From Gammaproteobacteria bacterium (GTDB lineage Bacteria > Pseudomonadota > Gammaproteobacteria > HK1): a DNA stretch of 64,000 nt. The notes under the pieces were generated by a model. It saw only the letters and a program-made list of their open reading frames with translations, did not search any database and was not told where the DNA came from. This document shows, piece by piece, positions 153-36,971 of the stretch. Positions within the stretch are counted from its first letter, which is position 1. Each line of letters starts with the position of its first letter. The translations under genes were made by a program, and so were the position numbers. Location of the stretch: the NCBI GenBank assembly GCA_021773635.1, contig JAJFJV010000019.1:248001-312000 (forward strand), given 5' to 3'.

Positions 153-2351
<2,199 letters not shown>

Positions 2352-2392
2352 GTAAATGCTAATGCCCCTCGGCGTCTATCGGGATGATGACT

Positions 2393-3625
2393 TTAGCCTG
2401 CGACGGGACTGGCAGCAGGTGCATCGATCTTCGCCGGGTCGGGAAGCAGCAGGGAAAGGGCTGCGGCGGCAAGCAGGAAGGCGGTCGATACCCACAGGCA
2501 ACCCACCAGCCCCCAGACCTGAAAGGCCCAGCCCGACAGCACCGTACCCACCAGGCGGCCAGCGGCATTGGCCATGTAATAAAAGCCGACGTTAAGGGCC
2601 ACCTTGTCAGCATCGGTATAGGCGAGCACCAGATAGGAATGGATGGCGGAATTGACCGCAAAGATTGCGCCGAACAGCCCCAATCCCACAATAATGGCCA
2701 GTGCCGGGTCCACCCCGAACTGGAGTGCCACGGCGATAGCGGCCGGGGAAAAACTCAGCAGCGTGGTCCAACCCAGGGCCGTACGTCCCCGCGGCGCGTG
2801 ACCACGGCGCATCCACGCAGGCACCGAGGCCTGAACGAAGCCATAACCGATCACCCAGGCCGCCATAAAGCCGCCCACCTGGGTGAAGCTCCAGCCTAGC
2901 GAGGCATGCAGAAAGACCGGCAGGCCCACCACAAACCAGATATCCCGCGAACCAAAGAGAAAAAAGCGTGCTGCCGACAAACGATTGATTTCCGGACTCT
3001 TGGACAGGATAGAGCTGAACTTTACCTTGGCCTTGGCCTTGCCCATCTCGCCGGGGAGCAACAATACCGACCCGCACAAAATAATGAAAAGCCCGGCCGC
3101 CATAGCGTAAAGGGCGTGGCCAAAGCCCAAGGTCGCCAGCAACAAACCACCGAGGAAAAATCCCGCACCCTTGAGGGCATTTTTGGAGCCGGTAAGGATC
3201 GCCACCCATTTGAACAACGCCGACTGGGCATCACCCGGCACCACCAGCTTGATGGCGCTCTTGGAACTCATCTTGGTGAGGTCCTTGGCGATACCCGAAA
3301 GGGCCTGGGCAACCATAACAAAGGCTACCGAAAATCCCTGGCTCCAGTCCGGCGAAAGCTGGGCCAGCATGGTGAGCGCAAACACCTGCATTGCGAGCCC
3401 GCCCAGCAGGGTCACGCGCAGACCGAAGCGTGAGCCTATCCAGCCACCCACCAGATTGGTGACGATGCCGAAAAACTCGTAGAACAGAAACAGGAAGGCG
3501 ATCTGCAGCGGGCTGTAGCCGAGGGTATGGAAGTGCAGCAGTACCAGCATGCGCAGCGCGCCATCGGTGAGCGTAAAGCCCCAGTAGGCCGTGGTAACGA
3601 GTGCATAGTTGCGAAGATCGGTCAC
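2393..3625 (-). CDS. arsJ: Organoarsenical efflux MFS transporter ArsJ
   Basis: A 410-residue major facilitator protein with about 12 hydrophobic segments. It carries family hallmarks that I recognise from ArsJ: ALSGIAKDL, WVAILTGSKNALKG and LGYSPLQIAFLFLFYE. ArsJ exports 1-arseno-3-phosphoglycerate, the unstable product made when GAPDH uses arsenate in place of phosphate, and so gives arsenate resistance without reduction to arsenite. The start codon is GTG, two bases downstream of the GAPDH stop, so translation is probably coupled. No arsR, arsC or acr3 is visible anywhere in the window, so regulation of the pair is not apparent. Family assignment is firm; activity in this organism is inferred. 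Confidence 0.92.
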   Translation of the reverse strand: MTDLRNYALVTTAYWGFTLTDGALRMLVLLHFHTLGYSPLQIAFLFLFYEFFGIVTNLVGGWIGSRFGLRVTLLGGLAMQVFALTMLAQLSPDWSQGFSVAFVMVAQALSGIAKDLTKMSSKSAIKLVVPGDAQSALFKWVAILTGSKNALKGAGFFLGGLLLATLGFGHALYAMAAGLFIILCGSVLLLPGEMGKAKAKVKFSSILSKSPEINRLSAARFFLFGSRDIWFVVGLPVFLHASLGWSFTQVGGFMAAWVIGYGFVQASVPAWMRRGHAPRGRTALGWTTLLSFSPAAIAVALQFGVDPALAIIVGLGLFGAIFAVNSAIHSYLVLAYTDADKVALNVGFYYMANAAGRLVGTVLSGWAFQVWGLVGCLWVSTAFLLAAAALSLLLPDPAKIDAPAASPVAG

Positions 3626-8833: not shown

Positions 8834-8866
8834 GGAGTCTGTCGGATTTAGGCGCTCGTAGTGAGG
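8834..8866 (+). repeat. Solitary end of the MITE-like element found whole at 35.2 kb
   Basis: The 33 bases from GGAGTCTGTCGG onward match the left end of the element at 35214-35246 with only a few substitutions and continue 12 bases past the inverted repeat itself, so this is not a chance match of a short palindrome. No second inverted end is visible within the hprA-hemH gap or either gene, so it is an eroded or solo end. It lies directly against the hprA ribosome binding site and upstream of the hemH promoter region. Confidence 0.7.
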
Positions 8867-8867
8867 A

Positions 8868-8900
8868 TATAACAAAGGCCCACGAGGGACAGCGTATAAT
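8868..8900 (+). promoter_or_regulatory. Possible hemH promoter (-10 TATAAT)
   Basis: A perfect sigma70 -10 hexamer, TATAAT, occurs at 8895-8900, 48 bases before the hemH ATG. No good -35 hexamer is present at the proper distance, so an activator or a weak promoter would be implied. The same 128-bp gap must also hold the hprA promoter on the other strand. Confidence 0.35.
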
Positions 8901-8947
8901 CCCCAACCAAGCCAACTTAGATACCGACTTAAAGGAACGAAGTCTCC

Positions 8948-34766: not shown

Positions 34767-35090
34767 ATGACTTTTGTCGTTACCGAAAATTGTATCAAGT
34801 GTAAATATACGGACTGTGTGGAAGTCTGTCCGGTGGACTGCTTCCATGAGGGACCGAACTTCCTCGTCATTGACCCGGACGAATGCATTGACTGCACCCT
34901 GTGCGAGCCGGAATGCCCGGCGGAGGCGATCCTTTCCGAGGATGATCTTTCCGATGAGCAAGAGCAGTACATCGCGCTCAACGAAGAGCTGTCCCGGGAA
35001 TGGCCGGTGATTACCGAGCAGAAAGATCCCCCGGATGATGCCGAGGAATGGGACGGTAAAACGGATAAATTGCAGTACCTGGAACGCTAA
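34767..35090 (+). CDS. fdxA: Ferredoxin FdxA, 7Fe type
   Basis: Small electron carrier of 107 residues. The N-terminal motif [14 protein letters not shown] and the second motif [12 protein letters not shown] are those of [3Fe-4S][4Fe-4S] ferredoxins of the Azotobacter FdI/FdxA type, followed by the long acidic C-terminal extension ([20 protein letters not shown]) that marks the family. ATG at 34767 with GGGGA upstream. It commonly follows mutS in gammaproteobacteria. A good terminator lies 65 bases after its stop. Confidence 0.95.
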
Positions 35091-35104
35091 GCGAGCTATA
35101 TCTT

Positions 35105-35127: not shown

Positions 35128-35154
35128 TATCTATCCCCTGCCTGACGCTCAACA

Positions 35155-35180
35155 GCCTGTCCCATCGGGACGGGCTTTTT
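35155..35180 (+). terminator. Rho-independent terminator of fdxA
   Basis: GCCTGTCCC (35155-35163) pairs with GGGACGGGC (35167-35175), with one T-G wobble and a three-base loop, followed by five T residues. It reads in the fdxA direction. Confidence 0.8.
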
Positions 35181-35211: not shown

Positions 35212-35376
35212 TAGGAGTCTGTCGGACTTAGGCGTCCGTAGCGAGGGGAAGCCATATTGAGACAGATTTTTCGGTCATTTGAGGATAATAGTCACTCTAT
35301 TAGACAAAAAGGACCGGAAAATAGGGCCAATAGGGCTTTTCCACAGTAGGGCAGTCCTAAGTCCGACAGACTCCTA
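35212..35376. mobile_element. MITE-like element with perfect 21-bp terminal inverted repeats
   Basis: The 21 bases at 35212-35232 (TAGGAGTCTGTCGG...) are the exact reverse complement of those at 35356-35376. Counting the outer TA at each end as a target duplication, the element is 161 bp (35214-35374) flanked by TA, as in Tc1/mariner-IS630-type insertions. A central hairpin of TAATAG and CTATTA adds to a fold-back shape. It has no open reading frame of note, so it would need a transposase in trans. Its right end supplies the stop codon of the LysE-type gene. Confidence 0.8.
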
Positions 35377-36009
35377 TATCTGAGCTCGCTCACCCAGCGC
35401 CAGATAGGCACCCAGACCAAAAAGTACGCTACCACACAGCCAGCGGAAACCCCGTTCTCGCCCTGCCGAGACTAACAGCCAGCTTGCTGCCCGACTGACC
35501 GTCCTCATGATCAACGTCAATACGCAACTCGCGATCACGGCATGCGAAACTCCAAAAACCGCGATCTGGGCAGCCGCATTTCCGGCCGCCGGATCGACGA
35601 ACTGCGGCAACAGGGCAAACATCAGCAGGGAGACTTTGGGGTTGAGGACGTTGATCAATACACCTTGCTGATAGATGCGCCCCAGGGAACGGTTGAATTT
35701 TGTATCTTTCACCCCGTCCTTCGGTGTTCGCGTGCGGATAATCTGAAAGGCCAGATACATCAGGTAGATAGCCCCGAGCCACTTGATCACCGTATACAGG
35801 CTGGCGGAGTAATAGAGCAGGGCTGACAGGCCCACCACGGCGAACACGGTGTGGCAGAGTATGCCGGTGGCATTACCCGCAATGGCCATGGCGCCGGCAC
35901 CGCGCCCCTGTTGAATGGTGGAGCTAATGACATAGAGCCAGCTCGCGCCCGGTGAGACGGCGATCACCAGACTGACTACCGCGAAACCAAACATCGCATC
36001 CAGGCTCAT
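35374..36009 (-). CDS. LysE/RhtB family amino acid exporter
   Basis: Inner-membrane exporter of 211 residues with about six hydrophobic segments. The N-terminal FAVVSLVIAVSPGASWLYVIS has the conserved P-G of the family, and INVLNPKVSLLMFALLPQFVD is the family signature. Substrate (Lys, Thr, homoserine or another) cannot be told. ATG at 36009 overlaps the Nudix/ThiE stop and has a purine-rich ribosome site. The TAG stop spans the TA flank and first base of the MITE-like element, so the original C-terminus may have been different by a few residues. Confidence 0.88.
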   Translation of the reverse strand: MSLDAMFGFAVVSLVIAVSPGASWLYVISSTIQQGRGAGAMAIAGNATGILCHTVFAVVGLSALLYYSASLYTVIKWLGAIYLMYLAFQIIRTRTPKDGVKDTKFNRSLGRIYQQGVLINVLNPKVSLLMFALLPQFVDPAAGNAAAQIAVFGVSHAVIASCVLTLIMRTVSRAASWLLVSAGRERGFRWLCGSVLFGLGAYLALGERAQI

Positions 36010-36971
36010 TCCACCTCTCCCCACAAACCGCGTATCGCCGCGATCCCCTGGGCACCATGATTCCAGGCACTATCCATATCGGCCACTTCCATACCCCCAA
36101 GGGCATACACCGGCAGGCTGGCGTCCTCCGCCCACTTGGCAAAACAGGCCCAACCCATGGCGGCTGCCCCCGGATGACTGGCCGTTGGCCGTACCGGCGA
36201 AAGTACCGCGAAATCTGCACCGATGGCGCGCGCCTGCTGCAAGTCGTGTGGGCCATGACAGGAGGCCCCCACCCAGTACTCCGGCCCCAATGGACGTTCG
36301 CTCAAAGTATGCAGTCGTCGGGAGTCCAGATGAACTCCCTGGGCCCCGAGTTCGGACACCTGTTCAGATTCAGCATTTAACAATAACTTTGCCCCAAATT
36401 CCGAACACAGGCTGGCTGCGGCCCGGGCCAACTCCGCGTAGGCAGTACGCCCACAACTTTTTGCCCGCAACTGCACCAGATGTACTCCAGCCTCGAGGCT
36501 ATGCTGCAAATTGTCCAGAAAGCGCGTCGTATCACCCTCGGGTTCGGGAGTAATAAGGTAGCGAGGGGGCAGACGCAAAGCGGTGATCACCGGGGCATCC
36601 GCGGCGGGGAAGGAGCGCCGATGGAGGTCACTGAGGGCCACCCACTCTATCACCTGACTCTCACGCCCATGCGGCACTCCCTGCCACTGATTTACCCGCC
36701 ACACATCCAATAGCACGGTGCCCTCGGGATAGCGGTGGCTTACACGGATCAGCGGGCGGGCGGCAGCGGGCTCGACCCCGATCTCCTCCCTGAGCTCGCG
36801 AGCCAGCGCAGCAGGGACAGCTTCTCCCGCCTCCAGCTTGCCGCCCGGGAATTCCCACAGCCCACCCTGATGCAGGTGATCGTGGCGACGCGCGAGCAAT
36901 ACTCGCCCGCGCTCATCGATCAGGGCCGCGGCCACCACATGCAAGACACCTGACCACGTGCTGTCGGACAT
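36006..36971 (-). CDS. Nudix hydrolase fused to thiamine phosphate synthase-like domain
   Basis: A 321-residue two-domain protein. The N-terminal MutT-type domain (about 8-135) carries the Nudix box GGKLEAGEAVPAALARELREEIG, which by homology hydrolyses 8-oxo-dGTP. The C-terminal domain (about 145-318) is a TenI/ThiE barrel with VHLVQLRAKS, GVHLDSRRL and LSPVRPTASHPGA. The fusion is known in gammaproteobacteria, where it stands in for mutT downstream of secA/argJ; whether the second domain makes thiamine phosphate is unproven. I start at ATG 36971, five bases after argJ; an ATG at 36995 inside argJ is possible. Confidence 0.9.
   Translation of the reverse strand: MSDSTWSGVLHVVAAALIDERGRVLLARRHDHLHQGGLWEFPGGKLEAGEAVPAALARELREEIGVEPAAARPLIRVSHRYPEGTVLLDVWRVNQWQGVPHGRESQVIEWVALSDLHRRSFPAADAPVITALRLPPRYLITPEPEGDTTRFLDNLQHSLEAGVHLVQLRAKSCGRTAYAELARAAASLCSEFGAKLLLNAESEQVSELGAQGVHLDSRRLHTLSERPLGPEYWVGASCHGPHDLQQARAIGADFAVLSPVRPTASHPGAAAMGWACFAKWAEDASLPVYALGGMEVADMDSAWNHGAQGIAAIRGLWGEVE

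Follow-up and report, generated by a model that had tools for sequence, protein, structure and literature searches.

A widespread MITE-like element with IS1182-type ends and a conserved strand-specific fold at the stop codon of a LysE-type exporter gene

MITEs are usually regarded as decayed, passive leftovers. The Correia/NEMIS elements of Neisseria are hairpin MITEs of ~100-200 bp that duplicate TA and lie near genes, their presumed partner being IS630-like; IS630 itself prefers CTAG and duplicates TA. Among full-length ISs, the IS1182 family includes ISAzo1 and, as we assume, IS1272. The latter is reported to transpose by replacing stem-loops without target duplication (PMC5678879), so that recognition of structure by such transposases is plausible. 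Bacterial MITEs also include Chunjie of Geobacter uraniireducens, with a length of 178-235 bp (reviewed in PMC10969869). Finally, the REP/REPIN sequences linked to TnpAREP are palindromes that occur in large numbers, form irregular hairpins and show strand specificity (PMC8266576).

The element described here lies in a window of 64,000 nucleotides, i.e. the whole stretch of DNA analysed. It is similar to Correia/NEMIS in being a hairpin MITE of comparable size with TA duplication and gene proximity, but has other ends and another presumed partner. As far as the review's account of Chunjie goes, both are short, non-coding, intergenic, present in many copies and bounded by inverted repeats; Chunjie is described there for one species, whereas our family of ~161 bp has swapped ends and a covarying polar core, a distinction drawn from the descriptions. 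The palindromic, hairpin-forming and strand-specific nature of REP/REPIN is likewise shared, but the element differs in length, in its TA duplication, in its IS1182 ends and in having no linked TnpAREP gene. Several full-length IS1182 members found in this study have terminal repeats and a CTA...TAG setting in common with it; the element, however, carries no transposase gene, shares only the outer 15-19 bp with these ISs, and duplicates TA, whereas IS1272 is reported to make no target duplication. The family with IS1182-type ends is widespread and apparently undescribed; among open-licence papers we found none containing the end sequence and no report of comparable IS1182 MITEs, a description elsewhere being possible. 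We are fairly confident that the element is a non-autonomous, MITE-like one which is moved in trans by an IS1182-family transposase, inserts at the TA of (C/T)TAG and has a conserved strand-specific fold.

The element at the LysE stop codon

The features of the window, followed by two genes of the focal genome (G000), are:

34767..35090, plus strand, ferredoxin-like gene (cysteine motifs of an iron-sulphur protein), convergent neighbour; ORF
35154..35176, plus strand, terminator-like hairpin between the ferredoxin-like and LysE-type genes; siblings have a similar hairpin with T-run
35212..35213, unstranded, TA, left copy of the target duplication; from empty sites in siblings
35214..35374, plus strand ("sense" strand of the conserved fold), full MITE-like element, GGAG...CTCC; covariance model R1
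35214..35232, plus strand, left terminal inverted repeat GGAGTCTGTCGGACTTAGG, kept across 106 aligned elements
35356..35374, minus strand, right terminal inverted repeat, identical in sequence to the left one; inverted-repeat search
35375..35376, unstranded, TA, right copy of the target duplication; from empty sites in siblings
35374..36024, minus strand, LysE-type exporter gene (name from the initial annotation, start approximate); ORF, orthologues stop at the equal residue
35374..35376, minus strand, TAG stop of the LysE-type gene; ORF, siblings without the element have the identical stop
8834..8931, plus strand, degenerate partial copy of the element; model R1, 29.4 bits, E 1.5e-5
G000 C16:126413-126733 and C11:43116-43418, two Y1 (RAYT-like) transposase genes with no element ends adjoining

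Between positions 35100 and 35500 of the window there is a single inverted repeat, the arms of which (35212-35232 and 35356-35376, 21 nt each) are 100% complementary and 123 nt apart. The natural unit is the 161 bp from 35214 to 35374, with TA outside each end; the terminal repeats are thus perfect over 19 bp, or 21 bp if the flanking TA is included. The ORF list of the window contains no reading frame within this unit. Folding of the whole element gives one hairpin from end to end, with -88.2 kcal/mol on the plus strand (z -11.4; 0 of 200 shuffles as stable) and -72.7 kcal/mol on the minus strand. Likewise, covariance model R1 scores the focal element with 156.9 bits on the plus and 80.2 bits on the minus strand.

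The initial annotation had postulated a recently mobile, non-autonomous MITE-like element with exact terminal repeats, TA flanks and no coding capacity, and had suggested searching for further copies. All of this agrees with our data: in addition to the repeats, flanks and missing ORF, the focal genome contains nine full-length copies (84-100% identical over almost the entire length; the closest to the focal element 98%) plus several partial ones, and both same-genus relatives lack the focal insertion while harbouring many copies elsewhere. The element therefore has what is expected of a MITE, namely terminal inverted repeats, a length below ~600 bp, no coding capacity, many dispersed copies of its family, and a target duplication (TA) with empty sites. 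It is a real MITE-like transposon; its family is widespread, has ends of the IS1182 type and conserves a polar fold that is unusual.

The LysE stop codon, TAG, is the complement of positions 35374-35376, its G coming from the end base of the element and its A and T from the flank. The initial annotation had thus correctly placed the stop across the TA flank and the outermost base of the element, and had concluded that the insertion redefined the C-terminus of the protein. That the G is an element base would indeed fit a stop created by the insertion. In both same-genus siblings, however, the site is empty and reads CTA (TAG on the LysE strand) at the identical codon, and their LysE proteins (84% and 81% identity) align end to end over residues 1-216. 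The additional C-terminal residues for which homologues were to be compared are not seen in these two siblings, the final residues being aligned. Because siblings without the element share the TAG codon and the full-length alignment, the C-terminus was not redefined, and a stop created by the insertion is extremely improbable; on sequence comparison, the insertion kept a stop that already existed. As to the mRNA end, also proposed to be altered, the sole change is the 161-nt hairpin that has come to separate the stop from the intergenic terminator.

Occupied sites read (C/T)TA[GGAG...CTCC]TAG. At five other stop-codon insertions, compared with siblings lacking them, TA is duplicated and the G and C are supplied by the element; at four of these, TA|G is found at the identical codon in every aligned sibling, and the fifth shows TAG in one sibling but TAA in the other. 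A duplication longer than this is excluded by two sites: one occupied site reads TTAG on the left and CTAG on the right, the focal one CTAG on the left and CTAT on the right. The duplication hence comprises TA, with G and C being the element's own, and, with (C/T)TAG as the target and G as the element's first base, TAG is rebuilt. A point against this reading is that many flanks deviate from a perfect TA...TA, which is present in 53 of 106 distinct elements.

Do stop codons as such serve as targets? For 30 of the 106 distinct elements, the position coincides exactly with the TAG that ends a frame of 150 codons or more, and in-register frame boundaries number 33 versus 11 and 4 in the other registers (P 6e-7). 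These figures would suit an element that preferentially recognises stop codons. On the other hand, CTAG is rare in the 464 kb of the focal genome inspected (243 seen, 567 expected), and of the 88 CTAG sites that do not fall within coding interiors, 43 are TAG stops, as judged from gene calls by a simple longest-ORF heuristic. With about half of the non-interior CTAG sites being stops, no special targeting is needed; CTAG preference combined with loss of gene-breaking insertions is enough to explain the placement, and we regard stop-codon recognition as very unlikely. The G...C ends and the CTAG target provide a simple account of how the element sits on stop codons without changing the protein, which extends to two overlapping convergent stops with neither protein altered.

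Ends shared with IS1182-family ISs

A full-length transposon with the same ends, as the initial annotation had advised to look for, does exist in other bacteria. Full-length IS1182-family ISs that have matching ends and likewise sit in CTA...TAG were identified in three sources: a cyanobacterium, a Burkholderiaceae MAG and a Methylobacter plasmid. In the cyanobacterial MAG, two ends 1.57 kb apart surround a damaged DUF772/DDE_Tnp_1_6 transposase, and the Methylobacter plasmid IS is assigned to NCBIfam NF033551 (IS1182) with 369.7 bits. ISAzo1 has related ends in the same CTA...TAG setting.

One and the same core occurs with three end types, GGAGTCTGTCGGACTT, GGAGGCTGTCCGAGAA and GCAGCCTGTCGGCCTT, each of which matches a different IS1182 sequence. 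The GGAGGCTGTCCGAGAA ends are those of the ISs L360 and L211 and are found on the same core in a copy on a plasmid of Pseudomonas sp. MPC6 and in several others. The GCAGCCTGTCGGCCTT type matches L215, a Massilia IS; the copy with ends matching L215 reads GCAGCCTG(T/C)CGGCCTT. L360, L211 and L215 all score as IS1182 above cut-off. This switching of ends on one core is the most telling fact for an IS1182 partnership.

A DUF772/IS1182 transposase was found neither in the focal genome (G000, searched for DUF772) nor in one sibling and some other copy-rich genomes. Since the focal genome has none, mobilisation in trans is what we infer, and the partner would there have been lost or missed. Transposases above the IS1182 cut-off are present in 7 of 30 core-positive versus 1 of 20 core-negative genomes, a comparison confounded by phylogeny, and most ISs from it carry other ends.

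Other partners were considered as well. A TA duplication in CTAG, as seen here, is what IS630/Tc1 MITEs would show, and a search for an IS630 (DDE_3) partner gave no DDE_3 match in genomes G000-G004; IS701 (DDE_5) was rejected with no match in the focal genome.

A second kind of non-autonomous element is a cyanobacterial, internally deleted IS1182 derivative of ~530 bp with the same ends in CTAG (L205, 434-963). The IS1182-family IS of L360 (~1340-3095) is centred in a palindrome, AACCACCTATA...TATAGGTGGTT, a setting consistent with reports of IS1272 targeting inverted repeats.

Covariation and strand polarity of the core

Across the aligned elements the stems vary, whereas the length of ~161 bp and internal motifs (...TCGTAGCGAG... 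/ ...CGCAGTAGA..., TTTGAGG..AATAGT...CTATT..ACGAAAA) are conserved. In 44 diverse elements, two-sided change is seen at 39 of the 59 pairs, and double-changed cells number 355 as compared to 107 in shuffles, although the sequences share ancestry, which inflates these cell counts and makes them non-independent. The covariation score is 0.449, compared to 0.173 for shuffled alignments and at most 0.131 for slid structures, with the further caveat that the structure was inferred on the sense strand. Less exposed to both caveats, if not immune, are whole-strand energies and series tests. The sense strand is the more stable one in all 106 elements (mean -80.9 versus -64.7) and in 34 of 34 elements obtained later by searching with a model, a few of them being shared with the first set. 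At pair positions using both G-C and A-T, G-T occurs as the intermediate in 158 cases and A-C in 16; G-T prevails in 20 of 21 informative series (P 2e-5). Among 39 copies within the genus, recent deviations comprise 21 G-T versus 27 A-C, i.e. no wobble bias. From this we infer that selection for a folded single strand acts on the propagating lineage, whereas resident copies are left to drift.

A very stable hairpin immediately 3' of stop codons, with covariation, might suggest that the element works for the host as a cis-acting or small RNA, i.e. as mRNA 3' end, terminator or regulator. This is quite improbable: sense and antisense placement at stops is 13 versus 20, recent copies lack the wobble bias, and Rfam gave no match above gathering cut-off (best 18.9 bits versus a cut-off of 97). 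Furthermore, the orientation of the elements is unbiased with respect to both genes and GC skew, so that a role in host transcripts or as host RNA is not supported. Similarly doubtful is a REPIN-like nature, with a Y1 (TnpAREP/RAYT) transposase moving the element as single-stranded DNA. A strand-polar hairpin with conserved internal loops would be in line with such a system, as would the two Y1 genes of the genome, but the motif is absent beside both, the ends match IS1182, and the unit measures 161 bp instead of two 20-50-nt REPs; units of this kind with GTAG beside a TnpAREP gene were not found. The TA duplication also speaks against IS200/IS605-type chemistry, which is not known to make one.

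The matching arms could further stem from hairpin-templated mutation, one arm being corrected from the other without selection on structure. Quasi-palindrome correction is a known mutational process and would yield two-sided changes. The internal-loop motifs, however, persist across alignments, and correction has no element polarity, whereas between lineages G-T exceeds A-C about tenfold; we consider this origin of the pairing unlikely, if somewhat less so than a host RNA or a REPIN.

Transposition by IS1182 in trans, combined with a selected fold, is our preferred reading. According to this proposal, an IS1182-family transposase supplied in trans moves, or moved, the element; insertion at the TA of (C/T)TAG duplicates TA, and the G...C ends rebuild TAG on the gene side, or on both strands if the target is CTAG. 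Here, the element inserted at the TAG with which the LysE gene already ended. Covariation suggests that the strand-specific fold between the ends is needed at some step of propagation, either as RNA or as single-stranded DNA, and resident copies would then decay neutrally. In contrast to the common picture of MITEs, the element has a constant length, is common to distant bacteria, shows a covarying fold of one strand and has undergone at least two exchanges of its transposase-binding ends. Whether a folded strand, be it RNA or DNA, is used by a DDE-type transposon system thereby becomes a testable question. More tentatively, and at slightly below even chances, we propose a modular selfish element, in which a conserved, structured, strand-polar core of ~120 nt, constrained as RNA or single-stranded DNA and with interchangeable IS1182-type ends, has spread across distant bacteria under a target rule that leaves TAG stops intact. 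If so, the folded strand would take an active part in transposition instead of being a by-product.

Copies, variants and neighbouring insertions

The two same-genus genomes have many more copies than the focal genome, other relatives few or none. A scan for the 19-bp end returned at least 112 stretches in many bacteria. Among these are isolates of Saccharospirillum, Pseudomaricurvus, Geotalea and Massilia, with Geotalea toluenoxydans and Massilia glaciei having many copies of the end sequence; for most other phyla the stretches come solely from metagenome-assembled genomes, in which binning errors are possible. According to the covariance model built here, 49 of the 299 genomes sampled within the phylum contain the element, family f68 being very copy-rich. 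Phage records gave no match. The search for a longer autonomous version with the same core yielded just variants of 202 bp (L085, 3235-3436) and 226 bp (L087, minus strand, 37-262), both of which keep the two subterminal core motifs; one core pair 2,543 bp apart represents two separate copies and not a longer element.

At one copy of the focal genome, 98% identical to the focal element (L002; G000 C3:16256-16416), long frames of 254 and 269 codons on both strands end at TAG, and both stops are kept. Some insertions adjoin others. Two core elements are arranged in tandem in L021 (4699-5025), whereas in L212 (2865-3005) a core element directly follows an IS1182-family IS, the two sharing the TA between them, and in L211 (from 2006) a similar end sequence likewise follows such an IS directly with a shared TA. 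New insertions may reuse the CTAG formed at the edge of an older one.
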